64,000 nucleotides of DNA, taken from the NCBI GenBank assembly GCA_037349105.1, contig JAYJMM010000078.1, positions 558,001 through 622,000 on the forward strand, in the 5' to 3' direction. Shown here piece after piece: positions 7,371-57,312 of this stretch. Under the pieces are notes generated by a model that saw only the letters and a program-made list of their open reading frames with translations, made no database searches and was not told the DNA's origin. This DNA is from Limnomonas spitsbergensis (lineage: Eukaryota; Chlorophyta; Chlorophyceae; Chlamydomonadales). The translations under genes were made by a program, and so were the position numbers. How positions within the stretch are numbered: the first letter of the stretch is position 1; every line of letters begins with the position of its first letter.

Positions 7371-7376
7371 CCAGCG

Positions 7377-8132: not shown

Positions 8133-8143
8133 CAGCCCGCGTC

Positions 8144-36319: not shown

Positions 36320-36321
36320 TG

Positions 36322-36519
36322 AGTGAAGTAGTAGGGGCGGTACCCACGAGACAGGGACACCCAGACAGGCCCTAGACAGGAAGACTCTCCTACTAGGGCT
36401 GGGCCTTACAGTTATCATGTTAACAGCTCTTGTATGTAGTACAAGGAGCCTGAGTGTACGACGCTGTACCGTATTTGTGAGTAGAGGACGCCTCTCTAAG
36501 GCATCCTGACCGGAGTTCA
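36322..36519 (+). repeat. Truncated repeat B2 of element 2
   Basis: It matches the first 198 bases of B1 and then stops at GGAGTTCA, where A2 of element 4 begins. About 44 bases of B2 and any target duplication have been lost at this junction. Confidence 0.85.
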
Positions 36520-37088: not shown

Positions 37089-37094
37089 GCTGTC
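37085..37094. promoter_or_regulatory. Palindrome GACAGCTGTC at the A2-B1 junction of element 4
   Basis: Conserved ten-base palindrome joining A2 (GACA) and B1 (TGTC) through GC. Confidence 0.58.
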
Positions 37095-37331
37095 GCACCA
37101 TAAAGCAGTAACTGCAATACTATGGTAAATACCGTGAACTCCGGTCAGGACGTCTTAGAGAGGCGTCCTCTACTCACAAATACGGGTCAGCGCCGTACAC
37201 TCATGCTCCTTGTACTACATACAAGAGCTGGTTAACAAGATAAGAAAGGCACAGCCCTAGTAGGAGAGTCTTCCTGTCTAGGGCCTGTCTGGGTGTCCCT
37301 GTCTCGTGGGTACCGCCCCTACTACTTTACT
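37091..37331 (-). repeat. Repeat B1 of element 4 (241 bp)
   Basis: It runs from TGTCGCACC to TACTTTACT. The B hairpin here reads AGGACGTC...GGCGTCCT: the A-T pair of subfamily I is replaced by a G-C pair, a compensatory change. Confidence 0.86.
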
Positions 37332-37912
37332 CGCCCCCCGCTCCCCAGCGTTAAGCCCTCCAGGCATGCGCTGGGAGCCGGAAAAGGGGTGGTACTGAAA
37401 GAAACTTCTGGAAAATATGTATGTAGAAGCTCACACCGTTTTAGCAAATCTGCCTGGTTCAGGCCTTCTTCAAAAAGAAAAATTCCACTGAGTTCAGCTG
37501 CTGATGCGCACATGTGCGGAATCCTACAAATTCTAACTGTTCAGCCCACTACCGGCTAGCAAACAGAGTTCTCTTCAAATTCATCAGGGCAGGCTAAGAA
37601 TAACCGCTGCTCTCGCCCCACTGCGCCATAGACACCTGGTCTTAAAGGCCACAGGAAATGTGCGCCGTAGCAGCGGGGTCTGCCCCCCGCTGTGTTATCA
37701 ACACACGACCTGACTAATTATCTTCATCCATCATCATATCCAGCATATGTACTACTGCAGCTTTGCTGCTACATGTATTTTGAGAAACAAATTCCAGACA
37801 GGCTGTGCTGCGTCTGGATGTCTCTTCTGCTACACAGACGCCTGCCCGCTCCTTGCCGTTAACGCTCCATGCTAAGCGGCCTTGCCGCTCTGGGCTCAGC
37901 CCTCCCTGAGGG
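37332..37912 (-). other. 3' UTR and polypurine tract of element 4
   Basis: About 580 bp without a supported gene. The G-rich purine tract on the transcript strand lies at 37332-37346. It is similar to 34760-35441 of element 2 read in reverse. Confidence 0.6.
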
Positions 37913-40502: not shown

Positions 40503-42106
40503 TCTGCCCGTTCCTGAAAGAATATGATGCGGGAGTTGCCATTAAGCAGGGCAGCACCCTCCTGGGCTGCCCTGTAACATTGATGCGATACCCCCCGTTG
40601 TCTGGGCATGCGACCACTTGGGCCTTGCTGCCCTTGTCCAGAATGTCGTCTACGACTCCCTTGTGGGGCCTTTCCGATGCACAAATCACATATTCAATAT
40701 CTGCTGCTGGGGCGATATTCCCCCAGTAATTGCGCGTGCGGTGGGCGTAAGACCCCACCTGTGCCGCATCAAACAGTGCAGGTGTCCCCAGGACCCTGCA
40801 CACCTCATGAAAAGCATCCACACTTGCCTTTGCACTCTTCTGATTTAACTGCATCGCCACGTTTTCAATCAGGTATGCTGGTGGCCGAGGCCTCTGCAGA
40901 ATCTGCAATGTGCCCAACAACTTGACTAACGGGAAGAAAGACTTGCTTCTTTCCCCCGCGAGTCCACGCCCCTTGCCTGCTGACGAGAGATCCTGGCACT
41001 CCCAGCCTGCTACCATGAACCACTGGCGCCCATCCTGGGCGCCTGCCCCCTGGAGGTGCTCTGCCGTAATGGCATACACATCTTGGGGCAGCGCTCTGAA
41101 TGCTTCTTCAAATGCTTTGACTGGGAGCAACTGGGGATATTGCTTGTGCAACTGCACCAGGCGACCCCCAGCGATCTCCCTCACTTCCTCACTGATATCC
41201 GCATACAGGTACCGCACCACTGGGATACCTGCCTTGAGCACCATTTCCAAACCCGAGCACATACCTCCAAAGGGCTCGAAAAGGACTACTCCCTCCGCCT
41301 CCATGGCCTGCACAGCCTGGACCGGTAGGCACATTGTGTCCACTCCTGCATGTGAGTGAGGTGGCGTCGCGCGGGGCAGGTCAGACAGGACATCACTGAT
41401 CATATTCCTGGCTCGTTCCCGGTTGCTGAACGCCTGCTCTGCCGTGCTGACAGGCTGCGCCTGCTCATCGTCCTCAGTAGCGGCGGATGATATCTCCTGC
41501 CCCACCGAGGCTGTTACGCAAGCTGCCTCTGCAGCTCGCAACATCTGTACTCTCCTTCTGCCCTCCTGCGCCATGCGCACCATCTGGTCTGCATGCCACT
41601 GGTTCACTCTGCCCAACCCCGTGAGCAAAGCTACCTGCTTCCCACTTGCCTCCTCATTGACTGCTGGCTCGGGGGCGGCTGTATCAAGCCTGGCCCCCGT
41701 GCGATCAGCTGCGGATGGGAGTGGCGACCTGGACGGGATGTCTGCATTCTGGTGGCATGCTCCTGAGCGGTGGACAATGGTAATGTCCAGCTCTTGGAGC
41801 ATGAGGGCCCACCTAGCGTGCTGGCCCACCAACGTCTGATTGTCCATGAGATAAGTGAGCGGCTCATGATCAGTGATGAGATGCACCTTGCACCCAAATA
41901 GCATGTGGCGATACGTGCGTGCTGCATACACTGCAGCCAGCATCCCCCCCTGGAATGAGGAGTAGTTCTTCTCGCTCATGTTCAGGGATCTGGATGTGCA
42001 TGCCACCATATATTCCCGCCCGCTGTCGTCACACTGCCCTAGCACTGCGCCGATGCCCTGCTTAGAGAAATCTGTGTACAACAAGAAGGGCCTTGGCGGC
42101 CCTCTG
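40444..42106 (-). CDS. RNase H and DNMT3-like methyltransferase (element 4 fragment)
   Basis: It starts inside the link before RNase H (GPPRPFLLYTDFSKQ) because element 3 splits the gene. RNase H lies in the first ~120 residues (LLYTDF, TDHEPL, HRSGACHQNAD). The methyltransferase shows FEPFGGMCSGLE, GWECQDLSSAGKGRGL, LIENVAMQ and AHRTRNYWGN, all catalytic motifs intact. It ends at TAA after NANER, a GAA-to-TAA change in the last motif region; the next codons (RAMGYAVGS) remain readable. Confidence 0.84.
42103..42106. repeat. Target-site duplication TCTG, left copy (element 3)
   Basis: The partner is at 57309-57312. Removing element 3 and one TCTG restores the 24-base stretch of element 4 at the same length as in elements 1 and 2, with a continuous GPDGRGPP frame. 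Confidence 0.85.
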
Positions 42107-42336
42107 TGTCGCACCATAAAGCAGTAAACGTGCTAATATGGTAAATACCGTAAACTCCGGTCAGGACACCTTAGAGAGGTGTCCTCTACTCACAAATACG
42201 GTACATCACCGTACACTCATGCTCCTTGTACTACATACAAGAGCTTGTTAACAAGATAACTGTAACTGGAAGTCCCTAACTGGATATCTCTGCCTGGAAG
42301 TCTCCGCCTCTTGGGTACCGCCCCTACTACTTTACT
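42107..42336 (-). repeat. Repeat B2 of element 3 (outer 3' end)
   Basis: 230 bp, identical by eye to B1 at 42971-43200. It abuts host TCTG at its outer end; its inner end is joined to A2 through a single T (42337), where element 2 has two different bases. Confidence 0.9.
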
Positions 42337-42337
42337 T

Positions 42338-42968
42338 CGCGATGTGCGCTTCAGGTCCGTGGCGGACTTCTTTCCTCACGGCAGTGACGGACGCCTACGG
42401 GCAGGCTCAGTGACTATTCACTGGCTGCGAGTGCTCAGCGAGTTAAGCGGCTAGCTGGTTATTTGTTTGTATAGCAATTGACTTAGGGAGCACAGGCCTT
42501 CTGGCCGTCTGGGCGCGATCCAGCTGGGCTATGTTAAGGTGCACTTACCGCGTGACACGCGGTGAGGGTGACGGGACGTAGACTGCGTACTTCTTCTTCA
42601 GCAGGGTCTCGGTTCTCTACTGGGGTACTTGTTTCCAGCTAGATCAGCTGAGGCTGAGCTAGTCTTGACTCGGGTTGAGGTACTGACTTATATGAAAGCT
42701 GCTGGTCTCGTAGACTGCCGGTGCTTGTTACAAATAGAGGTCTGTCCTTAAGAAAGGGACGAAGTAACTAGCCAAGGCAATTGCCGGGATACAGGGACCC
42801 GGCAGGCCCAATACAGAGTACGGTAGAACCTGTCAAACTTATCCTGCGTAAGCGGGTTTCTAGGTCTCAGTTCAAATCCGGAGGCTCCGCAGAGAAGCTG
42901 CGGAGTCACCGAGGCCGCTAACTGCGGTCTAAACGGTTCTGTCACGTGTACGGTAATATACTGTGACA
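42338..42968 (-). repeat. Repeat A2 of element 3 (631 bp)
   Basis: The same length as A1 (56678-57308), with about four differences, including one inside the inverted-repeat arm (CCTTAAG for CCTTTAG near 42748). It lies between B2 and B1. Confidence 0.9.
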
Positions 42969-42974
42969 GCTGTC
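42965..42974. promoter_or_regulatory. Palindrome GACAGCTGTC at the A2-B1 junction of element 3
   Basis: Kept intact although the neighbouring bases of A2 have changed (CTGTGACA against CCGTGACA in A1). Its two halves equal the outer ends of the inserted element. Confidence 0.6.
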
Positions 42975-43200
42975 GCACCATAAAGCAGTAAACGTGCTAA
43001 TATGGTAAATACCGTAAACTCCGGTCAGGACACCTTAGAGAGGTGTCCTCTACTCACAAATACGGTACATCACCGTACACTCATGCTCCTTGTACTACAT
43101 ACAAGAGCTTGTTAACAAGATAACTGTAACTGGAAGTCCCTAACTGGATATCTCTGCCTGGAAGTCTCCGCCTCTTGGGTACCGCCCCTACTACTTTACT
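42971..43200 (-). repeat. Repeat B1 of element 3 (inner copy)
   Basis: 230 bp, identical by eye to B2. It is followed on the plus strand by CGCCCCCCGCTCCCC, the polypurine tract on the transcript strand. Confidence 0.9.
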
Positions 43201-43871
43201 CGCCCCCCGCTCCCCAGCGTTAAGCCCTCCAGGCGTGCGCGGGGAGCCGGAAAAGGGGTGGTACTGAAATAAACTTCTGGAAAAATATGTACGTAGAAGC
43301 TTAAATCATCTGCCGTAAATCTGCCTGGTTCAGGCTTTCTGCAAATCTGCCTGGTTCAGGCCTTCTTCAAACAGAACTTGAAAAGAAAAAAACCACCGAG
43401 TTTCGGCTGAAGCGCAATGCGCGGCATCCTACAAATTCAAGCTGTTCAGCCCACTACTGGCTAGCAAACAGGGAAATTTCAAAGTTATCAGGTCAAGCTA
43501 AGAACAACCGCTGCTCTCGCCCCACTGCGCCATAGCCGCCTGGTCTTCCATGGCCACAGGAATTGTGCGCCGTAGCAGCGTGATCCGCCTCCTACTGTGC
43601 TATCATTGCCCGAGTTGACTAATTCTCCTCGCTCATCATTGTCATAACATATGTACTACCGTAGCCTTGCTGCTATGGTGTTGGGAGGAACAAAATTTTC
43701 CCTATGCTGCTGTGATAGCTTTAACTCCACTCCTGCATCTTCCGTCTTTGGTCCGCTGGCTGCCGGCCCACTGCCGGCTGGGTACTAGGACAAGCCGCGC
43801 TGCGTCTGCATTCCTGCTCTGTAGGCGCCTGCCCGCTCCTTGCCAGTTACGGCGTGGGTGACGTCACGTGC
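43201..43871 (-). other. 3' UTR and polypurine tract of element 3
   Basis: Nearly identical to 563-1233 of element 1, including the tandem AAATCTGCCTGGTTCAGGC units near 43315-43365. No supported gene. Confidence 0.65.
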
Positions 43872-46800
43872 TCAGGTCTCGGTAAGCTCCTCAAGGGCTG
43901 ACTCCTCTTCCTCCCTTGCTGCTTCTTTGGCCACCTTAGCCCTTCTTGTAACTGCTCTCGGGGTGACATTGGCCTCTCCCCGGCCAGTGGTGTACGAGAT
44001 GTCGTACAATCCGTTCGCCATTGGTCTTGCGATGCCCCGCTCCATTTGCCTTGTTGCTGGGTTGGTGGCCATGACTTCCACCTCAGGCCTGTCCATGACG
44101 TTGGCCTCCTGAGCTGTCCTGGCAGCCGCTCTGGCTGCTGGGCTCGGCCGCCCCTGGACCTGCAGACTGCGATCTTCTGCAGCGGATCCTGGCCTTGCCG
44201 CTGGCTCAACTCCCTTGTCATCAGGCGCGCAAGTTGGGCACAACCACTCGCCCTCAGGCACCTCTTCGAGTACTGGTACCAAGCAATCCATGTGCCAACC
44301 TGTATTGCAGGCATCACACAAAAGCATCACCTCTCCGCGGTCGGGCAGCTGGCACACCTCGCATGACAGGCTGTTATTGGGTCTGGTTCCACTGAAATCA
44401 ACCACTCCCGTGAGGTTGGGCAAGTGGCATGGAGAACAATTGACTGCATTCTCTGTAACTGTGAGGCCATCTGCCCCCTCCAACACCACGGTTCCCGTTG
44501 CCCCCAGTGTTTTTACCCTGAGGATCTCAGGCCTGGCCTTGGGATCGAGGCTGCGTCGCTCTGATGAATACTTCACATACACGTAATCTCCCTCTGCAAA
44601 ACGCCTGACCTGGGGAACATACCCTCCCCCACGAATGCGTGCATATCGCAGCTTGTCGCGGTGCTGCGCAATCTTTAGATGCTCACCCGCGACTGGCAGA
44701 GCCTCTTTGATCCTGGCCACTCTGGCCAAGAGCAGGTCTGCTGCCTCCTCTGCTGAGGCCACCTTGGCTGTGCTCCAGAGGTCCGCCCCCACCCTGGAGG
44801 GGAAGGTGGGTCTCTGCCCGAACAACACCTCGTACGGCGCCATGCGCGTGGCCTGCTGCGGCGAGCATCGGAAGCCTAGGGCTACCCAGGGCACCATCTT
44901 GTCCCAGGACTCGTCGCTGCTGCCCTCCTTGCAGCACTTGCGCAGGCCTGCCTTGAGGGTCTGGACAGCCCTCTCTGATAGCCCGTCTGCCTGGGGGTGG
45001 TTGGCAGAAGTGGTGCGGTGGTCAATGAAGCAGTCCAACAACATGTCCTGAAATTCACCCTGGAACTCTGTCCCCTGGTCTGTCACCACTTCTGCGCATC
45101 CCCCGAATCGCGCCACAACATTTTGAAAGAACGCTAAGGCCGTCACATCAGACGCCTTGCTTGGAATGGGGATCAACTCCACCCACTTGGAGTAATGCTC
45201 CGCACAAACCATCACAAACCGATTGCCCCTGGAAGTGGTCGTAAATGGTCCACACAGGTCCACTCCCCACCGGAAAAACAACCCCTCAATGGGTAGTGGG
45301 TGCAGGTTGGGCTGTATATGATTGAATGTGGACGCCCTGGCCCTGTCACACACACCACATTCCTGCACTGCCTTCTTGACTGCTGCTCTGAGTCCCCGCC
45401 ACCAATGCTGCTGCATGACCATGAAGGCCGTGCGGTGGCTGCCAAAATGGCCTGTACCGGCATGGGCTGTCTGGATCACTGCAAGCCTGTCCTCTGGCCT
45501 GGGCACCACACAACGTCTACCGTCGGGCATGAGTCTCATCAGTACTCCTCCCCTCTCTGATTCCCACTGGAATGGCGCAGCTCTGCGCTGTATTCTGGTC
45601 TGTTCTCCTAGCTCTGTTCCCGGGACAAATGCCTTCTCACGGAGAAACCTCAATACAGGTTCATCTGCCCACACATCAACCCTGACCGATGGTCCTGCAT
45701 GGCATCCTGGCGGGTCCTTCTCACCCTCCGTGTCTGTGGTCACCATGATTTCAACCTCAACTTGTTCCTCAGGCGTGTTCCCACCTGGTTCTTGTGCCGC
45801 GTCGGCCCAGTCTGCCGCAGCCGATTCTCCCAGGCACTGCCTGTATGACGCGGCCACTTCTCCGCTGCCCGAGCATGCGTTTCCTGCAGTAGCAAGGGCA
45901 TAGTGGCTGGACATTAAAGTTGCACCCATCACCGGGTCCTTGTCCGGGCCTGGCAGCCTTGCCCTGCGTTTCAATTCTTCTGGCATGATTTTAGCACACT
46001 CAAGTGCCACATTGAGCCATGCACCCAGTGCCCATGAATCCATGCACCTGCCCAAGGCTGCCCTCCTGGCTGCCTCTGGGAAATCTGGGCGCGGCAATGT
46101 GGACCCCACAGCGTACCCCATAGCTCGCTCACGCTCGTTTGCATTGGGCTCCTGCAAGTCCCCCATGGGCCTGTACACCATCCCATTTTGCCCGTTCCTA
46201 AAAGAATATGATGAGGGCGTGGCCATCAGACATGGCAGCACCTTCCTGGGCTGGCCTGTTACGTTGATGCGGTACCCCCCATTGTCCGGACACGAGACTA
46301 CCTGGGCCTTGCTGCCCTTGTCCAGAATGTCGTGTACTATCCCCTCGTGGGGTCTGGTCGACGCACGAATCACAAACTCAATATCTGCTGCAGGGGCGAT
46401 ATTCCCCCAATAGTTGCGGGTGCGGTGGGCGTAAGACCCCACCTGCGCTGCGTCAAACAACGCCGGTGTCCCCAGAATCCTGCACACCTCCTGAAAAGCC
46501 TCAACACTGGCCTTCACACTCTTTTGATTCAATTGCATTGCCACATTCTCAATCAGGTACGCTGGCGGCTTAGACCCCTGCAGGAACTGTAGTGTACCCA
46601 ACAGCTTGACTAATGGGAAGAAAGACTTGCTTCTCTCTCCCTCGAGCCCCCGCCCCTTGCCTGCTGACGAGAGGTCCTGGCACTCCCAGCCTGCTACCAT
46701 GAACCACTGGCGCCCATCCTGGGCGCCCGCCTCCTTGAGGTGCTCCGCCGTAATGGCGTACACATCTTGGGGCAACGCTCTGAAAGCCTTATCAAACGCT

Positions 46801-49800
46801 TTGACTGGAAGTAACTGAGGGTATCTCCTGTGTAACTGCAACAGGCGACCCCCTGCGATCTCTCTGACTTCCTCACTGATATCAGCATACAAGTACTGCA
46901 CCACTGGGATACCCGCCCTGAGCACCATTTCCAGTCCTGAGCACATACCTCCAAAGGGCTCGAAAAGGACGACTCCCTTGGTTTCCATGGCCCTCACCGC
47001 CCCACTCTCCAGGCAAGCTGTGTCCAGGCCTGCGTGTGAATGAGGGGGTGTTGCCCTAGGCAGGTCAGCAAGAACATCACTGATCATTGTCCTGGCCCGC
47101 TTCCTGTTGCTGAATGCCTGTTCTGCTGTGCTGACAGGCTGCGCTTGCTCATCATCGTCAGTGGCGGCAGAGGATATCTCCTGCCCCACCTGTGCTGTCA
47201 CGCAAGCTGCCTCTGCAGCTCGCAACACCTGTACTCTCCTTCTGCCCTCCTGCGCCATGCGCACTATCTGGTCTGCATGCCACTGGTTCACTCTGCCCAA
47301 CCCCGTGAGCAAAGCTACTTGTTTCCCACCTGCCTCCTTCTGGACTGCTGGCTCGGGAGCGGCTGTGTCGAGCCTGGCCCCTGTGCGGTCAGCTGAGGAT
47401 GGGAGCGGCGACCTGGACGGGATGTCCGCATTCTGGTGGCATGCCCCTGAGCGGTGGACAATGGTAATGTCGAGCTCTTGAAGCATGAGAGCCCACCTAG
47501 CATGCTGGCCCACCAACGTCTGATTGTCCATGAGGTAAGTGAGCGGCTCATGGTCAGTGATGAGATGCACCTTGCACCCAAACAGCATGTGGCGGTATGT
47601 GCGTGCTGCATACACTGCAGCCAGCATCTCCCCCTGGAACGAGGAATAGTTCCTCTCGCTCATGTTCAGGGATCTGGACGTGCATGCCACCATATATTCC
47701 CTCCCGCTGTCGTCACACTGTCCTAGCACGGCGCCTATGCCCTGCTTAGAGAAATCTGTGTACAACAAGAACGGCCTTGGCGGCCCCTTGCCGTCTGGCC
47801 CTGTCCCGCTGTAATCTGGTCTGCGCAGGACTCTTCCGCCCTCGCACATCTCTGTTTTGATCAACTGGAACGCCTGCGACTGCTCTGGCCCCCACACAAA
47901 CGGGATCCCCTTGACCAGCAATGCATTGATGCATGCTGCCTTTTTCGAGAAGTCCGGGACGTAGCACCGGTAGAAATTCAAGAATCCCATGACCTCCTGA
48001 ATGTTTTTCACCGATGTGGGCTCTGGCAGCGCCATAACTGCTGCTATCTTGGCTGCGTGCGGCGTGAGCCCCTGGGCCGACACATTGTGACCCAGGTACT
48101 CTACTGTTGCACACCCAAACAGGGACTTGTCGGGGTGCGCCCTTAATCCTACACTGTGGAGCATGTCCAACATCAGCTCCACATGCCTGATGTGTTCTGC
48201 TGGCGTATCACTGTACACTAGCAGATCGTCAATGAATGCCACGCAGAACGCACTCAGGCCTGCCCTGGCAATCTCCTCTTCCATCATACGCTGAAAGAAA
48301 AGAGGCCCATTGCGCAACCCGAAGTTGAGCTTTGTGTACATCCAAAGCTCAGGTCCCATCCAGAAAGCTGTCTTAGGCTGGTCCTCGACCTTTATAGGGA
48401 TCTGCATGAACCCTGACCGGAGATCAACCTTGCTGAATATCTTGGCAGTTCCCAGGTTCTGAAAAATAGTCTCCATCCTGGGGATTGCAAACTCCTGCTT
48501 AGCCGTATGCAGGTTTAACCTGCGCATATCGTGCGCTATCCTGTGGTCAGTCCACTCCCCAGTTTCAGCGCTCTTCTTGGCTGCTACTACTGAATTGGCC
48601 GCAAACTTGATAGGCCCCCCCTGGGGCACCTTGACTATGATGCCTGCCTCAATCATCGGCTGACACTTTTCCTTAAAAATCGCCGCCTTAGGCGGTGGCA
48701 TATCCCTGGACTTCTGAAAGCACGAACTGACCTCGTCTTCTAAAGCCAGCGTAAACTCACCCTGCGAGCCGCAGTAGCCTGGTAGATCCTCCATGGAGTA
48801 AGCGAACGCTCCTTGGCGATCCCGGAGGCTCTGCTCCAGGCTCTCCTGCTGCTCCGCAGTGAAGTGGGGGTGCTGGCCCAGCAGCCACCCCTCCTTGGTC
48901 TTGACGTACTCCGCGGGCGGCTCCACTACTCCCCCCGGCTGGAACATGTCGATCATCTCAGCCGCCTGCGGGTCGTCCTCCGCGGGCGGCTCTTCCCTGC
49001 CAGTGGTGTTGCCGCTGTGCCAGCTCTCCTGCTGGCTGCAGGCACCCCTCCTGCTGGCACCCCCCGTGGGAATGACTGCTGGCGGGCGCAACCATCCAGA
49101 CGACAGCTTCGCTGCTGCCTCTTGTCCCGACACGAAAGCCCCTTGGCCTGCTGTAAATCCTCCTCCTCGCACCCCCTGCTCGGTGGCTCGCGCCCCCGGC
49201 ACACACACCGACAGCAGGAGCCACACCAGTATCAGCTGGAGCGTCCCCGTAAGGATCCCCTTAAATGCTGTACAGGTGAGGAGTCCTCTGCAAGCTGGCA
49301 TCTTCCTCGTGGGTTGCTGCTGTAGGTGCTCTGTGGGCTGTACGCATGGTTCTGCACTCTGCGCTGGCCTCTGCTGCCCTCTGTCCCATGTGATCTCCAG
49401 GTCTACCTGGCTGATCCTGAGTGGCAGGACTGGGCAGTCCATTCCTGGCCTGCTGCCGCGGTTCCTGTCCTCGGCTGCCCTCTGCGCCTTTCCTGCGCGC
49501 CGCCTAGCCTTCTTTGACTTTTTTCCCCGCAGGTCGGCTGTGTCAGCCCAAACCGCACCGGCCCTCTCTGGCCCTGCTCCTGGGATCTGTCCTGTGCTGC
49601 CCTGTGCCAGCCGCTCCTGCCTGTGAGTAGCGCGTTGCACAGCCTTGCTGCTGCCTGCGCCTGCAGGCTCTCCTGGCCCACGGCCCTGTCGCATGATTTC
49701 CTGCGCGCTGTCGGCCTGCCTAAGGTCCGTCCCCTTGCTGGTTCGGTATTGGCTGCTGCGACTCATTGACGGCTGCTGGGCGGTCACTCCCTGTGCCTCC

Positions 49801-50327
49801 ATCGTTTTGAGGGCTGAAACTCTCTCCGTCAGCTCCTCCTGTAGCTCCCTGACTGCCCTGCTGTAACCTCCCATCCTGGGGTTCGGATCGGGCTGTGGCA
49901 GCATTCTGAGTCGGAACAGCAGGCTAGCCTCCTGGCTTGCCTCTTGCTGCCCCATTTCCTGCCTTCTTAGCACGTCTAGTTGATCCACAAAGTTCCTGAG
50001 CACTGCCATCCAGCGTCCTGTGCTATATGCTGCCGGGTCACCCCAGGGCTCCTTTGCTGCCTGTGCTGGTGGGCTGATCTGGACGCCCCCTGGGCGCCTG
50101 CTGCTTACCTCGCATGCTGGAAGTCCCCTGCGCGGGGAGTCCCCATGGCTGTCTTGAAGTTCCTGCGCCGGCTCCCTATGGGTACCCCCTGGCCCCTGCC
50201 TGGTCCCCAGGCTCCATAGCTCCGCGCCGGGCCTGCAGGTGCCCCTGGCCTGTCGCTTGTCGGCACGGCCTGCTCCGGGTTGGTGCACTCGTTGGCAAAG
50301 TGCCCAGGCTGGCCGCACTTGAAGCAC
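43872..50327 (-). CDS. Intact Pol: hydrophobic segment, RT, RNase H, DNMT3-like methyltransferase, integrase, PHD (element 3)
   Basis: 2,151 codons without a stop. The first ~70 residues, upstream of the deletion joint near 50114, are Gag sequence in another frame, so the true start is uncertain. Landmarks by residue: hydrophobic segment 350-380; RT about 545-820 with FIDDLLVYSD near 698; RNase H about 853-968; methyltransferase about 1114-1440 with FEPFGG, GWECQDLSSAGKGRG near 1213, IENV near 1258 and HRTRNYWGN near 1300; integrase HHCC about 1620-1660; Asp in VDLCG near 1687, Asp in VTDQG near 1748 and Glu in LSERA near 1782; PHD about 1985-2031. The frame is -1 relative to Gag, with about 220 bp overlap. 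This is the best template for the family's enzymes. Confidence 0.92.
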   Translation of the reverse strand: MLQVRPAWALCQRVHQPGAGRADKRQARGTCRPGAELWSLGTRQGPGGTHREPAQELQDSHGDSPRRGLPACEVSSRRPGGVQISPPAQAAKEPWGDPAAYSTGRWMAVLRNFVDQLDVLRRQEMGQQEASQEASLLFRLRMLPQPDPNPRMGGYSRAVRELQEELTERVSALKTMEAQGVTAQQPSMSRSSQYRTSKGTDLRQADSAQEIMRQGRGPGEPAGAGSSKAVQRATHRQERLAQGSTGQIPGAGPERAGAVWADTADLRGKKSKKARRRAGKAQRAAEDRNRGSRPGMDCPVLPLRISQVDLEITWDRGQQRPAQSAEPCVQPTEHLQQQPTRKMPACRGLLTCTAFKGILTGTLQLILVWLLLSVCVPGARATEQGVRGGGFTAGQGAFVSGQEAAAKLSSGWLRPPAVIPTGGASRRGACSQQESWHSGNTTGREEPPAEDDPQAAEMIDMFQPGGVVEPPAEYVKTKEGWLLGQHPHFTAEQQESLEQSLRDRQGAFAYSMEDLPGYCGSQGEFTLALEDEVSSCFQKSRDMPPPKAAIFKEKCQPMIEAGIIVKVPQGGPIKFAANSVVAAKKSAETGEWTDHRIAHDMRRLNLHTAKQEFAIPRMETIFQNLGTAKIFSKVDLRSGFMQIPIKVEDQPKTAFWMGPELWMYTKLNFGLRNGPLFFQRMMEEEIARAGLSAFCVAFIDDLLVYSDTPAEHIRHVELMLDMLHSVGLRAHPDKSLFGCATVEYLGHNVSAQGLTPHAAKIAAVMALPEPTSVKNIQEVMGFLNFYRCYVPDFSKKAACINALLVKGIPFVWGPEQSQAFQLIKTEMCEGGRVLRRPDYSGTGPDGKGPPRPFLLYTDFSKQGIGAVLGQCDDSGREYMVACTSRSLNMSERNYSSFQGEMLAAVYAARTYRHMLFGCKVHLITDHEPLTYLMDNQTLVGQHARWALMLQELDITIVHRSGACHQNADIPSRSPLPSSADRTGARLDTAAPEPAVQKEAGGKQVALLTGLGRVNQWHADQIVRMAQEGRRRVQVLRAAEAACVTAQVGQEISSAATDDDEQAQPVSTAEQAFSNRKRARTMISDVLADLPRATPPHSHAGLDTACLESGAVRAMETKGVVLFEPFGGMCSGLEMVLRAGIPVVQYLYADISEEVREIAGGRLLQLHRRYPQLLPVKAFDKAFRALPQDVYAITAEHLKEAGAQDGRQWFMVAGWECQDLSSAGKGRGLEGERSKSFFPLVKLLGTLQFLQGSKPPAYLIENVAMQLNQKSVKASVEAFQEVCRILGTPALFDAAQVGSYAHRTRNYWGNIAPAADIEFVIRASTRPHEGIVHDILDKGSKAQVVSCPDNGGYRINVTGQPRKVLPCLMATPSSYSFRNGQNGMVYRPMGDLQEPNANERERAMGYAVGSTLPRPDFPEAARRAALGRCMDSWALGAWLNVALECAKIMPEELKRRARLPGPDKDPVMGATLMSSHYALATAGNACSGSGEVAASYRQCLGESAAADWADAAQEPGGNTPEEQVEVEIMVTTDTEGEKDPPGCHAGPSVRVDVWADEPVLRFLREKAFVPGTELGEQTRIQRRAAPFQWESERGGVLMRLMPDGRRCVVPRPEDRLAVIQTAHAGTGHFGSHRTAFMVMQQHWWRGLRAAVKKAVQECGVCDRARASTFNHIQPNLHPLPIEGLFFRWGVDLCGPFTTTSRGNRFVMVCAEHYSKWVELIPIPSKASDVTALAFFQNVVARFGGCAEVVTDQGTEFQGEFQDMLLDCFIDHRTTSANHPQADGLSERAVQTLKAGLRKCCKEGSSDESWDKMVPWVALGFRCSPQQATRMAPYEVLFGQRPTFPSRVGADLWSTAKVASAEEAADLLLARVARIKEALPVAGEHLKIAQHRDKLRYARIRGGGYVPQVRRFAEGDYVYVKYSSERRSLDPKARPEILRVKTLGATGTVVLEGADGLTVTENAVNCSPCHLPNLTGVVDFSGTRPNNSLSCEVCQLPDRGEVMLLCDACNTGWHMDCLVPVLEEVPEGEWLCPTCAPDDKGVEPAARPGSAAEDRSLQVQGRPSPAARAAARTAQEANVMDRPEVEVMATNPATRQMERGIARPMANGLYDISYTTGRGEANVTPRAVTRRAKVAKEAAREEEESALEELTET

Positions 50328-53300
50328 AATCCACCATGGCGTGGTCCTAGGTTACGCCGAGGCTCTGCCACCCCGCTGCCCCCTGCCAGGGCTCTGTCTG
50401 TCGGACTGGGGCATGGGCCTCGCTGGTGCTCCTGCCCCTGCCTGTAAGGCCTGGCAAACTCCTCAGGGCGCCGTTCCCTGGATCTGCCCCTGGGCTGGTC
50501 CCTGCTGGGTGACCGCTGCCTGCGGTCCCTGCTCCTCTCCTCACTGTTGCTGCGCTGCGCCGCGCCTTGCCGCTGGGTCCTGGCTGCCGGCGTTGGCACC
50601 GTCCCGTGGCGCTCCTCACTGATGGCCCTTTGCGCGCTTCTGCTGCGCTGTCGGAGTCTTCTGTTCCCTGAGCCGCTCTCGTCGCTGCTAGAAGAACCGC
50701 GCTGCTGCTGTTCTCCCTGCGGCTCCCCCATGCCGGAAGGCTCGATCTCCATGTCTGGTAACGGGGACGGGGTCTCCATCATTTCCCTGAAGTCCTTCGC
50801 CATTGCTGGGTCCAATTCAACTGGGAGCGGCTGCCCGTGGTTTGGCAACCCCCCCAAGTGTTGTGTTCCCAGGGTCTCCTGCAGCTTGACCAGCTCATCT
50901 GCCCGCAGGATGTACTGCCGATGAACCTCTGCCATGGCCTGCTGAGCATCCTGGATGCTCTTCCACCCCGCCAGCTGGCCTTTCAGGTAATCCACGATTC
51001 CCGCTGCCTGCTTCCACATCTGATGTTCTCTCCACCTGAGAGCTTTTTTCAGCCCGTCAACTTGCCCGGTCAGCCTGCCGATGTGCCCGTCTTGCGGGCT
51101 GGTCCCTGGCTCTGGAACCTTTTCTACGCTGCACTCCTCTTCCTCCTCTTCTTCCTGCGCTTCGTCATTGCTGCTGCTTGCTGGTTGCGCAGGAGGCCTT
51201 GCTGCCCTTGGCTGCCCCTGCAGCTGCCGCTGTTGCGCCTGCCTACCCTCGCCGTCGCTGGCATGTTGCACACTAGGCCCTGCCACCTGCGGGTCCTTTC
51301 TCAGCTGCTGCTGCTGCTGCTGTTGCGCCTGCCTGCCAGTGCCGTCGCTGGCCTGTTGCACACTAGGCCCTGCCACCTGCGGGTCCTTTCTCAGCTGCTG
51401 CTGCTGCTGCTGTTGCGCCTGCCTGCCAGTGCCGTCGCTGGCCTGTTGCACCCTAGGCCCTGCCACCTGCGGTTGCCTTTGCAGCTTCTGCTGCTGCTGC
51501 TGCTGCTCTCCCCTGTTGCGCGCCGAATTTGACTGTGCAGCTCTGTCGGCTGCAGCTGTGCCAAATCTCCTCTGCTGCGCTGCAGGCGGCACTGCCTGCA
51601 CTGCAGGCGCTGTCTCAGGGGTCCGCGAAAGGACTTGAATCCTCCTCTCACACTCCTCCGCCGAGTGCACATCTGGCTTTCCGCACAAGGCGCACGGGTG
51701 GCTGGGGCATGCTGGCATGAAGCCCCTGATGATCTCTCTCCCATTGTCGGAGATTCCCGTGGCTCTGCGCGCTCTTGTCACCTCCTCTGAGGTTGCTGCG
51801 GCGGCCTCTGCCACTGTTGCCTCGATTGGCACCAGCCTGTGTCTTTGTAGCCTGGGGTGTACCTGGTTGCTGGGTCCTGCGTCCTGTCCAGCTCTCATAG
51901 CGGCACCCTTGTAGTCGTAGTTGTCTGCTCCCATGGGCATCGTGGTGAAAGACAGCGCTGAGAGCCTCTCGTTCAGCTTGAACACCTGTAGGCGGATGTC
52001 GGACATATCGTCAGCTAGTTTACTCAATACCAGCCTCTTTGCCCCCTTCCTGGAGGAAGGTTCCACGCATCCTGACACTGGTTCCTCCTCCTGAAAAGGT
52101 TCTGGCATAAACGACTTAGGACGGGCGTTATGAACCGCCTGTTTGAAACCCGCAGGCTTGGGTACCAGCCCAACCTGCGTCATGAGTGCTACGGACTCGC
52201 TGAGCATCTCTGCCATGGTCTGGTGCCAGCCTTCTGGCTCAGCCTGCACCGTTGCATTGCTGAGATGCGACACGTGGGCTGCCTGCTGCGCCTGACCTCC
52301 CTGGCCAGGTCCAGGCCTAGGATACTGCCTGTTGTTCTGATTCCTGTCATACGGCCGGCCTGCAGCCTGTCCCTGCTGCGGCCTTGGCGGTAGGGGGTAC
52401 TGCTGTTGCTGCGGATACTGCTGTTGCGGCTGTCTGGCCGGTCCAGGAGTGATGTCTGTAACCAGGGGCATAGGCCTGCGCTCATCCCTTGCCCTGGGCG
52501 TCCTGCAATCCCTGGCTAGGTGCGTCGTGCTACCACACTGGTAGCATGCTTTGGCTGCGCCTGAGGCCCCCTCAGCGTTGTAATGTGCCGTCCCCGTTTG
52601 GTCCGCCCATGTAACTCCTCTGGGTTTACCATCCATCCGTGACTGTGGTACTGCTGCTGAGCCTGCGGGGTGCACAATTCCATCAAGGCGTGTCCGCATC
52701 TCCCACTGTCCTGCTCTCTCTTTTCTGCCCCTGTTGGGTTGTGCCTCTCCCTGGCCAGGCCCGCTGTTGGTTATCTGCCTGAAGCCGGTTCCTCCCAGGT
52801 CACCCATTTCCAGGGCAAACCTCTCCCACAGCACCACCTGCTGCGTGAGTACTGCGATCTGGTCTTCATCGCTCATGCTGAGGTACCCTGGCACCGTCAT
52901 TACGAACTTGCTCAGCTTGGCTCTAGCAACCGCTGGGAGTCCGTCATGGAACATGCGCGAGACCGAGTGGCTTCTGCCGAAGTGATCTACTGCATCCCTT
53001 GAGATCTGCAGCAACTCTGCCGTTGTCAGCACTCTGTGAGCAAATGCTTCCACCGTCTCCTCTGGCTTGACGTCCGGGTCTAGAGTAGTCTTTACTCCTA
53101 GCCTGAGGTTGGTGATGGCCGTCCTCTCCTCTGAAGTTGGCTTTCCCACCTCCTCCTGGACCACCCTGATCCACAAAGTGAGTAGCGAAGCTTCGCAACC
53201 CTGCTCCTCTGCTGGGGCTATCCACAGCTGCCCGATCCGCTCCACCTCTTTGGCAATTCTGTTTCCTGCGTGGGGCGCTGCCCTGATGGCTGCCATCAGC

Positions 53301-55975
53301 GGCCTCATGCTGGCCGGCTTGCTGTCCCACAGCTTGACCAGCGACTTGATCAGCAACGTCATAGCTGACGGCGACTGGCACGATCCAGCTATTTCACCTG
53401 CCACCACAGCCAATGCTGGCTGGTCATCCGACATTGCTAACCTGTTGTGTGATCCCCAGTATCCACACGCCTGGCAATACTTCCTGGCTGCAACTGCGCC
53501 TGGGTGTGACATATCCAGGACTGGTACGTTGCCTTGGATGGCTGGGATCTTGGCTACCTTGGCTACCCCTGCCAACTGCAGTACCATCTGCTGCTGCAGC
53601 TGCAGGTTCACCCTCGCCTGCTCCCGATCGAGCCTTTTCATTTCCTGGTCGCTGGACTCCTGTCTGGCCCCCGGCCTGCGTCTGTCCGCTCCTCCTGGTC
53701 CCGAATCTACTGACTCTGACCGTGACCCAGGTCCTCCACTGCCGCCCCTCGATGGGCTGCGGCCTGAATGATACCTGTCATGTCTGTTATAATCCTCATC
53801 CTGATCGTGAGCGTCTCGTGATGGCTGTCTGCCCGCTCTGCCTGCCGAGCTTCTACTTCCTTCAAGTGGCGGTCGTTCTGATTCGCTTCTGCCTGGTCTG
53901 CTGTCAGATCCAGGCCTCCAAGACTGTGCTCTACCGGGCTCTGCCTGTCCCCTGGGCAGTTCCTGGTCTTGCCATTCCTGCCGCACTCCTCTGCTGTGTT
54001 CCGCTGGTCCCCTGGATTGCTCCTGGCTCTGCTGGCTTGGCTGTTCCCTGCCCTCTGCCTGTCCTCTGGGCGGCTCTTGGCTATGCTGGTGAGGCTGTTC
54101 CCTGGAGTATGCCTGCCCCCTGGGCGGCTCCTGGCTCTGCCGACCTGGCTGCGTCCCGCCTGTGTAATTCCTGGCATAGGAATCAGACTGTGTTTCCTCT
54201 CTGGCCTCCTGTATTTTTGGACCACTGCTCCGTGCGCTGCCTGCAGGATCATTCCTCCTGGCTCCCCTTGCTGTGCCTGACTGCCTGTTCCTCAGGAATT
54301 CCTTGATGTAATCCACCTGGGTTTCCTGGTATGCGTTCTCTTTGTCCTCGACTATGCGTAGCAACTCATAAGACTCTTGCCTGCTTGCTCTGCGTGTTGC
54401 TGTGCTTTGCTCTGCCATCCTAGCGAGTGATCGGCTAGTCAATTCCGCCCTTTCACTGGCGGCTGGACTGCTGGCTCTGGGCGCTTCCCTGCCCCTTGGC
54501 CGTCCTCTGAGGCTGGGCTCGCTGCTGACCTCGAAAGCTGCAGATCTGAGTGTTGGTGTTGGCGCGGCTCCCGTCTGCTGCTGCCACCTTTGCACCTCCC
54601 TGAGCCCCTCAGGCCGCTGCACCTCTGTTTCAAATCCTTCCCACGCCTGGCCCTCCTCATCCTCTGGCTCTGATCCAGGTTCCTCCTGGTCTCCTGTGAC
54701 CTCGTTGCACCATTCATCTGCGAAGGCTTTAACAGCCCTGGCTGCTTCGCGTCCCGCCCTTCCCTTGGATACCTGTCCAAGGGCGGCTAACAGTATCGCC
54801 CTGTCCAACCCTGTGTGGGGAATACCCAACATGGCCTTTGTTGCCCATCCCCGCAGATGATGGGCCTTGAACTCCTCAATGGCTGTGACCTGGTCCTGGA
54901 AATGCAAGAACGTCCTGGAGCAAACTTGCTTCCACAGGTCTGTTGCCCACTGCAAAATTCCTGCCCAACCGATCGGCCCTTCTGACTCCTCATCGCCGCA
55001 CACTACTCCCACTGTCTTGGAGCGTTCTGGCTCTCTTTGCATCTGGCTGCTAGCTCCCTCCATGGATTTCTGCACAGGTCTGTTCACGCTGGGTGGAAAA
55101 CTGGACAGCGGTGTGCCGAAGACTGTGGATCCAGCTCCTCTTCTAACCAGTGCCTTGTGCGGCTGCAGCTGCTGCACGGTACGCAGTCCTGCTGTAGTCT
55201 GCTGCCCCTGCTTTTCCTGAACTGGGTCTGGCTGTTCTTCCTCGGATATTAGGTCAGCCCAAGGCTTCCCTACCGGCTTAGCTGGTTTCTCCCTTTCCTT
55301 GCCTGCCTGCGAGCTCTGTCTGCCCGCTGCTGGCTGGGGCTCAGCTTCCTCGTGCTTGACCCCTGCAGGCACATTCCTGGCCCCATCTTCCTCTGTCTTT
55401 ATTCGAGGTTTGTCTGTGCAGGTTTTATCACAGCCTGCAAACTTGTCTGAAGCTGCGGCTACCTTGGCCCTTAGATCCGATTGGCTGGGCTCTTTTTCAA
55501 CCCGCTGTGCAACACTTGCCACCCTGGGCAGGCTCTGCTGCGGCTCGGCCTCAGGTTCACTGCTCTGTCGCGTGTCACAGCTCTGGGATGCTTCCGTTGC
55601 TTGATCCGAGATCAGCTCTGGGGTTCCCGCTTGAGTCTGCCCCTGCTCGAAATTCAAACTGCTGTCTGAGCCAGCGGGCAATGGACCCCCTCGACCAATG
55701 CCTTTTCGTGTTACTAGTACTGCACCATCTGCCTGCGCCCCTGCCCCTCTGGGTGGTACGCGGCCCGGCTCAGGTACCCTGCAGTCCTCTGCAGGCGGTT
55801 CCACTGGCCCTGCCAGCTTTTCCGCCATCAACAGGGCCTCTGCCACAATCTCAGCACTAGCATTTTTTAGGTCTACACCCGGCTCCAGCCCCCTCAGACG
55901 CCCACTCTTCCGTTGGACGTCAGGGTGCTGGTGCCTATCGGGGTTCAGATCTACGCCTGTCATCTCCACAGGCAT
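50105..55975 (-). CDS. Gag lacking protease and domain X (element 3)
   Basis: ATG at 55975 (MPVEMTGVDLNPD), about 1,956 codons, all open. Disordered N-terminus, capsid-like helices at about 830-1060, CCHC knuckle 1 near 1142, then a direct join MGADNYDYKG-AAMRAGQD at about 51905, where the protease segment is missing. Then follow the CCHC-like CALCGKPDVHSAEEC, three Gln-rich repeats, coiled coil, SR-rich stretch and knuckle 3 (CFKCGQPGHFANEC). It ends ...GDFQHAR just past the 2.95-kb deletion joint, whose out-of-frame sequence supplies the stop. Confidence 0.88.
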   Translation of the reverse strand: MPVEMTGVDLNPDRHQHPDVQRKSGRLRGLEPGVDLKNASAEIVAEALLMAEKLAGPVEPPAEDCRVPEPGRVPPRGAGAQADGAVLVTRKGIGRGGPLPAGSDSSLNFEQGQTQAGTPELISDQATEASQSCDTRQSSEPEAEPQQSLPRVASVAQRVEKEPSQSDLRAKVAAASDKFAGCDKTCTDKPRIKTEEDGARNVPAGVKHEEAEPQPAAGRQSSQAGKEREKPAKPVGKPWADLISEEEQPDPVQEKQGQQTTAGLRTVQQLQPHKALVRRGAGSTVFGTPLSSFPPSVNRPVQKSMEGASSQMQREPERSKTVGVVCGDEESEGPIGWAGILQWATDLWKQVCSRTFLHFQDQVTAIEEFKAHHLRGWATKAMLGIPHTGLDRAILLAALGQVSKGRAGREAARAVKAFADEWCNEVTGDQEEPGSEPEDEEGQAWEGFETEVQRPEGLREVQRWQQQTGAAPTPTLRSAAFEVSSEPSLRGRPRGREAPRASSPAASERAELTSRSLARMAEQSTATRRASRQESYELLRIVEDKENAYQETQVDYIKEFLRNRQSGTARGARRNDPAGSARSSGPKIQEAREETQSDSYARNYTGGTQPGRQSQEPPRGQAYSREQPHQHSQEPPRGQAEGREQPSQQSQEQSRGPAEHSRGVRQEWQDQELPRGQAEPGRAQSWRPGSDSRPGRSESERPPLEGSRSSAGRAGRQPSRDAHDQDEDYNRHDRYHSGRSPSRGGSGGPGSRSESVDSGPGGADRRRPGARQESSDQEMKRLDREQARVNLQLQQQMVLQLAGVAKVAKIPAIQGNVPVLDMSHPGAVAARKYCQACGYWGSHNRLAMSDDQPALAVVAGEIAGSCQSPSAMTLLIKSLVKLWDSKPASMRPLMAAIRAAPHAGNRIAKEVERIGQLWIAPAEEQGCEASLLTLWIRVVQEEVGKPTSEERTAITNLRLGVKTTLDPDVKPEETVEAFAHRVLTTAELLQISRDAVDHFGRSHSVSRMFHDGLPAVARAKLSKFVMTVPGYLSMSDEDQIAVLTQQVVLWERFALEMGDLGGTGFRQITNSGPGQGEAQPNRGRKERAGQWEMRTRLDGIVHPAGSAAVPQSRMDGKPRGVTWADQTGTAHYNAEGASGAAKACYQCGSTTHLARDCRTPRARDERRPMPLVTDITPGPARQPQQQYPQQQQYPLPPRPQQGQAAGRPYDRNQNNRQYPRPGPGQGGQAQQAAHVSHLSNATVQAEPEGWHQTMAEMLSESVALMTQVGLVPKPAGFKQAVHNARPKSFMPEPFQEEEPVSGCVEPSSRKGAKRLVLSKLADDMSDIRLQVFKLNERLSALSFTTMPMGADNYDYKGAAMRAGQDAGPSNQVHPRLQRHRLVPIEATVAEAAAATSEEVTRARRATGISDNGREIIRGFMPACPSHPCALCGKPDVHSAEECERRIQVLSRTPETAPAVQAVPPAAQQRRFGTAAADRAAQSNSARNRGEQQQQQQKLQRQPQVAGPRVQQASDGTGRQAQQQQQQQLRKDPQVAGPSVQQASDGTGRQAQQQQQQQLRKDPQVAGPSVQHASDGEGRQAQQRQLQGQPRAARPPAQPASSSNDEAQEEEEEEECSVEKVPEPGTSPQDGHIGRLTGQVDGLKKALRWREHQMWKQAAGIVDYLKGQLAGWKSIQDAQQAMAEVHRQYILRADELVKLQETLGTQHLGGLPNHGQPLPVELDPAMAKDFREMMETPSPLPDMEIEPSGMGEPQGEQQQRGSSSSDESGSGNRRLRQRSRSAQRAISEERHGTVPTPAARTQRQGAAQRSNSEERSRDRRQRSPSRDQPRGRSRERRPEEFARPYRQGQEHQRGPCPSPTDRALAGGSGVAEPRRNLGPRHGGLCFKCGQPGHFANECTNPEQAVPTSDRPGAPAGPARSYGAWGPGRGQGVPIGSRRRNFKTAMGTPRAGDFQHAR
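51255..51515 (-). repeat. 90-bp tandem repeats encoding Gln-rich units (element 3)
   Basis: The landmark TTGCACNCTA recurs at 51265, 51355 and 51445. Same unit and copy number as 11570-11835 in element 1. Confidence 0.85.
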
Positions 55976-56654
55976 TTTACGAACCGCACTGTCCTGCAGG
56001 TGTGCTGGCGACACCCCCTACAAAACCTGCTAACGTTAGGCTTCTGCCCCTTATCCCTACTGCAATCTGGTGAGGATCTGCTAGTCAAGGCCGGACGGCA
56101 GGTACAGCAATTTCGCAGGATAGGCCTTGCCCTCTGCTGTTATGCTCACTTAACTTTTAATCTGGCGGAATCCTCCTTCGCCCTTTAGTCCCTCCCACCT
56201 TTGCTGGCTGGGCTGCCTCTAGCTGGCACACGTCCCTTGCGGATGTCTCGCCTCCGGGCGGATATATCCTCTTGCGCTGTGTCAGTTCCTCTCTGACGTC
56301 CTGCGGGGATCCTTTGGTACACCACAAAATTTTAAACTTGGATGATCTATCAACAAGTTCACTTCTGTCAATGATGAACGATTGGATCCACCTGATCACA
56401 ATCTGCAGTCACACAGGAATTATCTGCTGGGTGTATAAATCCACAGCCAGATCCTCAAGCCTCTCCTGGACTCAACACTAAGTTGCCACTCTCAGTGATT
56501 CTCAGGGTTTAACTTGGCACTCTCTATGGAGATTACCACAGCAAAGTGCAGTTCAAATGCTGTCCAAGGTCGTTTGTATACAAATAAATTTCCAATTTCG
56601 CTGCACAAGCACCTTTAGCAGGAATTGGCAAATTAAGCTGATCAGGCTAAATCC
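55976..56654 (-). other. 5' leader of element 3
   Basis: About 680 bp, almost identical to 16942-17620. No supported gene. Confidence 0.65.
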
Positions 56655-56677
56655 ACTTCGTCCCTTCCTAAAGGACA
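56655..56677 (-). promoter_or_regulatory. Putative self-priming primer-binding site (element 3)
   Basis: It lies directly next to A1. It is the reverse complement of 57085-57107 inside A1 except for one base (CTTCCTAA against CTTTCTAA in element 1), which would give a G-U or mismatched pair in RNA. Confidence 0.48.
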
Positions 56678-57308
56678 CGCGATGTGCGCTTCAGGTCCGT
56701 GGCGGACTTCTTTCCTCACGGCAGTGACGGACGCCTACGGGCAGGCTCAGTGACTATTCACTGGCTGCGAGTGCTCAGCGAGTTAAGCGGCTAGCTGGTT
56801 ATTTGTTTGTATAGCAATTGACTTAGGGAGCACAGGCCTTCTGGCCGTCTGGGCGCGATCCAGCTGGGCTATGTTAAGGTGCACTTACCGCGTGACACGC
56901 GGTGAGGGTGACGGGACGTAGACTGCGTACTTCTTCTTCTGCAGGGTCTCGGTTCTCTACTGGGGTACTTGTTTCCAGCTAGATCAGCTGAGGCTGAGCT
57001 AGTCTTGACTCGGGTTGAGGTACTGACTTATATGAAAGCTGCTGGTCTCGTAGACTGCCGGTGCTTGTTACAAATAGAGGTCTGTCCTTTAGAAAGGGAC
57101 GAAGTAACTAGCCAAGGCAATTGCCGGGATACAGGGACCCGGCAGGCCCAATACAGAGTACGGTAGAACCTGTCAAACTTATCCTGCGTAAGCGGGTTTC
57201 TAGGTCTCAGTTCAAATCCGGAGGCTCCGCAGAGAAGCTGCGGAGTCACCGAGGCCGCTAACTGCGGTCTAAACGGTTCTGTCACGTATACGGTAATATA
57301 CCGTGACA
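56678..57308 (-). repeat. Repeat A1 of element 3 (outer 5' end, 631 bp)
   Basis: It ends ...CCGTGACA directly against TCTG of element 4; there is no B repeat on this side. This asymmetry is the main evidence for split direct repeats. Confidence 0.9.
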
Positions 57309-57312
57309 TCTG
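57309..57312. repeat. Target-site duplication TCTG, right copy (element 3)
   Basis: It directly follows the ...CCGTGACA end of A1 and is the partner of 42103-42106. Confidence 0.85.

Follow-up and report, generated by a model that had tools for sequence, protein, structure and literature searches.

Organization of the element

The window analysed here (the whole stretch of 64,000 nt on contig JAYJMM010000078.1, called C78 in coordinates, from the 260-Mb genome of Limnomonas spitsbergensis in 124 contigs) holds a nest of retroelements, numbered 1 to 4, of which element 3 is our main subject. By self-comparison of the window and base-level reading of the joints, its order on the minus strand is 5'-CAGA-A1(631)-internal-B1(230)-GC-A2(631)-A-B2(230)-CAGA-3', that is, repeat A (631 bp) stands alone at the 5' end and B-A-B at the 3' end, B being a repeat of 230 bp. 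An earlier note on this DNA had described just this arrangement within a TCTG duplication, and its coordinates were confirmed base by base. A1 and A2 differ at 4 of 631 positions, B1 and B2 at 0 of 230. The features of element 3, in window coordinates, are:

42103-42106, no strand: 4-bp target duplication, 3' side (TCTG on the plus strand, CAGA in element orientation)
42107-57308, minus strand: element 3 as a whole, A1-internal-B1-A2-B2 inside the 4-bp duplication
42107-42336, minus strand: B2, 230 bp, with the end ...GACA
42337-42337, minus strand: x, an extra A at the A2/B2 joint, variable between copies
42338-42968, minus strand: A2, 631 bp, begins TGTC
42965-42974, no strand: 10-bp palindrome GACAGCTGTC (GACA-GC-TGTC) at the B1/A2 joint, by sequence reading
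42969-42970: spacer GC between B1 and A2
42971-43200, minus strand: B1, 230 bp
43201-43215, minus strand: putative polypurine tract (PPT) GGGGAGCGGGGGGCG immediately 5' of B1, named by position
43872-50351, minus strand: Pol open frame, 2159 aa
44229-44363, minus strand: PHD finger, at the Pol C-terminus after the integrase (9.3e-11)
44973-45269, minus strand: integrase catalytic core with D1698, D1758 and E1793
45333-45494, minus strand: integrase HHCC zinc domain
46038-46961, minus strand: C5 DNA methylase region, DNMT3A-like, with the Cys in ECQ (outer limits read from the conserved block)
47475-47894, minus strand: RNase H (profile match)
48081-48533, minus strand: reverse transcriptase RVT_1 (profile match, 9.2e-23)
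50105-56017, minus strand: Gag-like open frame with CCHC knuckles
56655-56677, minus strand: putative primer-binding stretch (PBS) abutting A1, complementary to A(~204-226)
56678-57308, minus strand: A1, 631 bp, begins TGTC
57083-57105, minus strand: segment of A1 complementary to the PBS, a putative self-primer
57309-57312, no strand: 4-bp target duplication, 5' side (TCTG on the plus strand)

Recurrence in the genome and target duplications

The same order recurs throughout the genome. The DNA searches covered the best 40 scored of about 1700-2300 candidates; for the 5' ends these were the best 40 of 2297, and in all 40 the flank is followed by TGTC...A1-PBS, B being absent upstream of A1. 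A B-A query found 41 three-prime loci, and every one of them is B-A-B (one with a deletion inside A2). Among the best 40 PPT-B1 ends, 17 were already known to continue into A2; another 23 were new, and among the 20 of these that were read, found with a query that contained no A, 17 continue into A2, 2 stop cleanly in the flank and 1 is truncated. Both clean PPT-B ends were traced to their 5' ends and proved to be A-PBS-I-PPT-B copies (I being the internal region) with duplications CAAC and TTAA; these may equally derive from recombination between B1 and B2. At the level of exact patterns, the A/PBS joint has 328 matches in the genome and the reversed-pattern control 0, and the B/A joint has 1000 matches, tandem arrays included, against 4 for its control.

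A D,D,E integrase cuts its target with a stagger, and the flanking repeats that result are specific to each copy. We paired A1 with B1A2B2 ends wherever both lay on one contig and one strand at a distance of 15-19 kb (n=20; no fetched three-prime end matched the other 20 of the 40 five-prime ends), and an exact 4-bp duplication was present in 19 of the 20 pairs, with 19 different sequences; the pair on C109 has no 4-bp duplication. In these 20 pairs the mean divergence within a copy is 0.29% for A1/A2 and 0.24% for B1/B2, as compared to 4.07% and 3.51% between copies, so that A1 and A2, and likewise B1 and B2, appear to start out alike when the element inserts.

Pol, Gag and the search for a tyrosine recombinase

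The Pol frame presents the order of a Ty3/gypsy element with two further modules, the best PDB match being Ty3 Gag-Pol. Its integrase can be aligned with those of prototype foamy virus (PFV) and Ty3, and H1630, H1635, C1665, C1668, D1698, D1758 and E1793 are invariant in nine of nine aligned Pols. Between RNase H and integrase lies the methylase region, which is DNMT3A-like by PDB match; its C5 methylase profile match is weak but over threshold (1.2e-5), the Pfam stretch covering residues 1217-1314 only. ECQ is invariant in the same nine Pols and stands in the place of what we take to be the usual methylase motif, PCQ. The PHD finger, also found in many of the listed homologues, is possibly a chromatin-reading targeting module. 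Inside the Gag-like frame there is a tandem repeat with a 90-bp period (window 11533-11821 in element 1 and 51218-51506 in element 3).

Among the 120 homologues listed, those with organism-bearing names come from the green algae Haematococcus, Monoraphidium, Pleodorina, Chlamydomonas eustigma, Chromochloris and Chara, as suits a chlorophyte host, and no Klebsormidium protein is named among them. Searched with the Pol alignment, viral contigs gave 47 pattern stretches and no relative.

A tyrosine recombinase was looked for with the Phage_integrase profile (PF00589) at Pfam-level sensitivity, which diverged DIRS-type recombinases could escape: there were zero matches genome-wide at E<=0.001 (the control was positive in 14 of 14 genomes), zero at E<=1 in all 19 frames of at least 150 aa wholly inside element 3, zero at E<=1 in three frames of element 1, and zero at E<=0.01 in nine frames of elements 1, 2 and 4. 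The combination that the earlier note had singled out, split repeats on an element with HHCC and D,D,E integrase motifs and no detectable tyrosine recombinase, is thus borne out, with 4-bp duplications in 19 of 20 pairs. Neither of the two outcomes that were to count against that proposal, identical full-length long terminal repeat (LTR) pairs in most copies or a tyrosine recombinase gene, was seen.

Two definitions of the LTR

Immediately 3' of A1 lies TGTCCTTTAGAAAGGGACGAAG (one base differs in element 3), which is the reverse complement of A(~204-226). In 36 of 40 copies this stretch is perfectly complementary to the copy's own A1 over at least 23 nt; the remaining four have 20, 13 and 10 complementary nt, and none found. 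The copy with 10 is element 3, where a G at position 11 (a G-U pair in RNA) ends the perfect match. The pairing is also present in the predicted fold of element 1. The copies read have a PPT-like tract before B1 and a PBS-like stretch behind A1, and from complementarity and position we infer that they work as primer site and polypurine tract.

In LTR elements the PBS and PPT set the starts of minus-strand and plus-strand DNA, and hence the ends of the LTR. With a PBS after A1 and a PPT before B1, the minus strand would start at the end of A and the plus strand at the start of B, so that the LTR made by reverse transcription (RT) would be B-A and its product BA-I-BA. In the integrated element, by contrast, the first bases are those of A (TGTC) and the last are those of B (GACA). 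Inside the LTR the two lie back to back as GACA-GC-TGTC, which is palindromic over all 10 bp; the GC spacer is present in 41 of the 42 joints parsed (the exception, L027, has the start of A2 deleted). The LTR predicted from PBS and PPT is therefore permuted relative to the integrated ends. Cutting the palindrome after each CA would yield CA-3'OH ends with 2-nt 5' overhangs, like processed retroviral ends. Such cutting has precedents: in vitro, PFV integrase cleaves both strands of its own two-LTR palindrome after CA (PMC1180852), and HIV-1 integrase likewise cleaves its own (PMC1905944).

The start of A forms an inverted repeat, TGTCACG...CGTGACA (window 57279-57308 and its equivalent in A2), with a predicted hairpin in the fold of element 1; it may be part of the end that integrase binds.

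The variable A2/B2 joint

The B1/A2 joint is constant and the A2/B2 joint is not. In 42 parsed joints (B-A-B by construction of the script, at loci found with the B-A query; L068, with its internal deletion in A2, lacks the whole A that the script requires and is not among them), the extra sequence x is absent in 32, T in 5, A in 2, TG in 1, the 10-mer TGTCCTTTAG in 1 and a stretch of 13 nt in 1. Exact patterns searched genome-wide gave 165 A2/B2 joints without an extra base, 34 sites with one (18 T, 13 A, 3 G, 0 C; two of the 18 T sites lie 864 bp apart within one array) and 11 with two (10 TG, 1 CG). Losses of 1-7 bases, the only ones that the loss pattern sees, had a single match genome-wide, and since that pattern has longer exact flanks than the patterns behind the preceding counts, 1 match versus 210 is not strictly comparable.

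The extra bases have recognizable counterparts: the PBS begins with T, TG and the 10-mer, and the PPT ends in G and CG. The bases shared with the PBS look like copied pieces of the primer, TG may alternatively be T plus G, and the extra A may be untemplated. By sequence, then, the A2/B2 joint looks like the retroviral two-LTR (U5/U3) joint with its primer and PPT remnants. In addition x differs among copies without any substitution in B1A2 (gaps uncounted): L023 has T and L022 nothing, L025 has TG and L020 nothing. An x that differs between copies alike in B1A2 must have been made anew, at least in those copies.

Proposed mechanism and its alternatives

The anatomy, the integrase motifs, the duplications, the places of the PBS-like and PPT-like stretches and the variation of x between copies alike in B1A2 together suggest integration from joined (circle-type) DNA. 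We propose, with a probability of roughly 0.7, a Ty3/gypsy-type element with a permuted LTR, in which the ends made by RT are joined and the integrase opens the palindrome of the 5' LTR. Reverse transcription would be self-primed at the PBS after A1 and the plus strand would start from the PPT before B1, giving linear BA-I-BA; the U5 end (A) would then be joined to the U3 end (B) in the manner of a two-LTR circle, producing A-x-B. The D,D,E integrase would bypass the RT-made ends, open GACA-GC-TGTC at the B/A boundary of the PBS-side LTR, and insert the opened ends into the target with a 4-bp duplication, leaving A1-I-B1-A2-x-B2. From these arrangements we deduce a joining of the ends, before integration or in the course of it, and integrase as the agent that cuts the palindrome. 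The PBS-side palindrome would be the one chosen because, as we propose, it is double-stranded first, and would be cut while the 3' one is still single-stranded and awaits plus-strand synthesis through the 13-17 kb interior. Such early cutting predicts a minor A-I-B product, from cuts made before strand displacement.

Several points weigh against this proposal. A two-LTR circle has two palindromes: opening the PBS-side one gives A-I-BA-x-B and opening the other gives the mirror product A-x-BA-I-B, so that a circle cut at random would give the mirror half the time. The mirror product is absent. In our comparison of sites (100 of the 328 A/PBS sites; A/B joints on contigs C3-C39; B/A joints on C3-C17, the C15 array left out), an A/B joint stood just upstream in 0 of the 100 listed sites and 8-25 kb downstream in 51, and BA stood upstream of 0 of the 40 five-prime A1 ends. 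Random opening of a two-LTR circle is therefore excluded and the opening must be ordered; the particular ordering given above, which would account for the missing mirror, is itself deduced. The extra A (13 of the 34 one-base sites) is templated by neither PBS nor PPT, and the 32 exact joints among the 42 carry nothing that marks them as fresh. Only 11 of 20 pairs for A and 7 of 20 for B diverge less within the copy than from the nearest other copy, a weak contrast because many copies are near-identical. A circle, the RNA ends and the integrase activity are predictions from sequence. Palindrome cutting by PFV integrase, moreover, is specific to its own palindrome and does not extend to those of HIV-1 or murine leukemia virus (PMC1180852).

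One site had to be considered as a mirror product, C9:3187494, the only one of 26 A/PBS sites on C3-C17 with a B/A joint just upstream; we rejected it, as its B is preceded by a PPT. By the spacing of exact patterns, C9:3186600-3188350 reads PPT-B-A-PBS-~0.6 kb-B-A, that is, two bodies with one common LTR, one body being very short. On C3-C17 an exact B/A joint lies 560-700 bp upstream of 16 of 18 A/B joints. The two exceptions, C4:1879127 and C15:427148, are candidate solo A-x-B remnants or B/A joints with a mutation.

The closest competitor, which we hold possible but rather less likely than the joining of ends described above, is a sub-case which that proposal leaves open: the integrase would cut the 5'-LTR palindrome of linear cDNA first and hold both ends in one complex, and the freed B would be ligated or end-joined to the far A, possibly after insertion, with no free circle at any stage. 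One-sidedness follows directly from this order of events, the 13-nt filler in one copy resembles end joining, and the two rare A-I-B copies (CAAC, TTAA) would be premature cuts, although recombination between B1 and B2 accounts for these equally well. Repair of a broken chromosome usually leaves short losses, and at the A2/B2 joint these are nearly absent (the single match given above). Replication in the manner of DIRS/PAT elements would have the RNA span A1 to B2, B1A2 template the closure of the ends and the A2/B2 joint be inherited, the D,D,E integrase merely replacing a tyrosine recombinase. The repeat order is that of PAT, Ngaro and VIPER-like elements (PMC6681497), and the constant B1/A2 joint fits; an inherited joint should not, however, differ between copies without a substitution in B1A2, nor should x match remnants of a primer site and a PPT, and the PBS-like and PPT-like stretches are placed as in LTR elements. 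We regard this as improbable.

Two further readings have next to no probability in our estimate. If the element were of DIRS type and moved by a tyrosine recombinase, TCTG would be a common crossover core and not a duplication. Its repeat order is all that speaks for this. We rejected TCTG as a crossover core because each of the 19 pairs with a 4-bp repeat has a different one and because the B1/A2 joint does not read TCTG/CAGA. PF00589 has no match in the element frames at the thresholds given above, and none in the genome at E<=0.001, on which latter ground we also rejected a recombinase encoded elsewhere in the genome. An ordinary Gypsy element with the LTR A-x-B and a truncated 5' LTR, or an artefact of assembly or recombination, would agree with the TG...CA ends and 4-bp duplications, which are ordinary enough, but not with an order that recurs (40 of 40 five-prime A-PBS ends without B, 41 of 41 three-prime B-A-B loci, 17 of 20 further PPT-B1 ends continuing into A2) nor with duplications that flank the whole unit.

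Other elements in the window and repeat arrays

The remaining elements of the window, and the places that match the target region of element 3 without the insertion, are as follows.

1-18274, minus strand: element 1, same family; A1 at 17644-18274, A alone at 18274, 3' end beyond the window
35442-36519, plus strand: element 2, B1-A2-x(TG)-B2; B2 stops after 199 of ~230 bp
36518-37332, minus strand: element 4, a B1-A2 remnant of the element into which element 3 is inserted
30531-31130 (element 2), 47491-48090 (inside element 3 itself) and 4852-5451 (element 1): insertion-free target region of element 3

These last three places match the target region of element 3 along 600 bp without a gap, at 93.5-94.7% identity. 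About 2.95 kb and about 0.65 kb of element 1 are missing from element 3, which is therefore an internally shortened copy. The B2-A2-B1 of element 1 spans the left window edge (C78:557470 onward) and its target duplication is TCTT; that the element ends with A alone at 18274, as the earlier note had it, was found again. The B1-A2-B2 reported for element 2 at 35442-36519 likewise stands, though its target duplication is unreadable because B2 breaks off early; its A1 appears to lie outside the window, just left of it, at C78:556584. The window is a nest, with element 3 within element 4 and, as it appears, element 1 within element 2. Elements 2 and 4 lie tail to tail at window 36518-36520, B2 of the former and A2 of the latter breaking off at the same point. 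Elsewhere in the genome the LTR has turned satellite, in long head-to-tail arrays of ~885-bp B-A units (C15:1173900-1215548 and C18:10351-21009), and short (BA)n-B arrays occur at C109:3597698-3600531 and C22:250684-252651.

Relation to known systems

By its predicted proteins and its duplications the element is a Gypsy element and not a DIRS one, yet its terminal anatomy falls outside the ordinary definition of an LTR element. With Ty3/gypsy elements (Metaviridae) it shares the RT-RNaseH-integrase order, TG...CA ends, the 4-bp duplication and, by sequence and position, PBS-like and PPT-like stretches; it differs in that the integrated ends lie inside the RT-defined LTR and that no pair of LTRs of equal extent exists, with A at the 5' end and B-A-x-B at the 3' end where the same LTR would be expected at both. 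PAT, Ngaro and VIPER-like elements have the same A1-internal-B1-A2-B2 order with a tyrosine recombinase (PMC6681497), whereas here the order comes with a D,D,E integrase and 4-bp duplications. Of what defines the DIRS/PAT group, the element has the split direct repeats; a tyrosine recombinase gene was not found, and instead of no target duplication there is one in 19 of 20 pairs. The putative PBS is, as described for Tf1, complementary to sequence farther 5' in its own RNA and not to a tRNA, over 23-27 nt in most copies as against 11 in Tf1 (PMC7175516).

A described counterpart in structure is KnitGypsy-Dnmt3 of Klebsormidium nitens, for which a figure legend gives a DIRS-type repeat structure with Gypsy domains (de Mendoza et al. 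2018, Fig. 4c, PMC5890265). Going by that description, and not by sequence, the Gypsy-type Pol, the Dnmt3-type methylase and the DIRS-type repeats are all present here too; its host is a charophyte and ours a chlorophyte, and duplications, PBS/PPT, joint and mechanism are absent from the description. The earlier note's suggestion of a distinct integration strategy thus stands insofar as a D,D,E integrase is joined to split repeats and duplications, and falls insofar as the combination was taken as unreported. In the mostly open-access literature covered, we found split repeats with a D,D,E integrase for Klebsormidium only (in that legend), and no published description of an integrase element with permuted RT-defined and integrase-defined LTRs. 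Two points go beyond that note: the B-A LTR defined by PBS and PPT is permuted relative to the integrated ends, and the A2/B2 joint varies between otherwise alike copies.

A circle route to integration was proposed in 1984 for spleen necrosis virus by Panganiban and Temin and doubted from 1987 on (PMC11054761). The likeness to that model lies in integration ends that would come from a palindrome opened in joined DNA (PMC11054761, PMC1180852); retroviruses, as these sources describe them, use a linear precursor with its termini as integrase ends, whereas here the palindrome lies inside each predicted RT-made LTR and the U5/U3 joint is kept in the insertion. A U5/U3-like joint with primer and PPT remnants is thus found, and mirror products are not.

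Implications

In standard models integrase acts on the ends produced by reverse transcription. In the present element the RT ends and the integrase ends appear uncoupled, the former joined and buried, the integrase site lying 230 and 631 bp inside. We lean, by a narrow balance, towards a retroelement lineage whose D,D,E integrase obligatorily integrates from end-joined DNA of the two-LTR circle type via an internal palindrome, which would be the Panganiban-Temin route in nature. Such a natural system makes joined viral DNA as an integration precursor directly testable. If true, split direct repeats would be the mark that LTR-type cDNA leaves in general when its two ends have been joined and it is opened again within the LTR, be it by a tyrosine recombinase or by a D,D,E integrase. 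These recombinases are to our knowledge unrelated, and there would then be one explanation for their presence on elements with the same odd repeat order.

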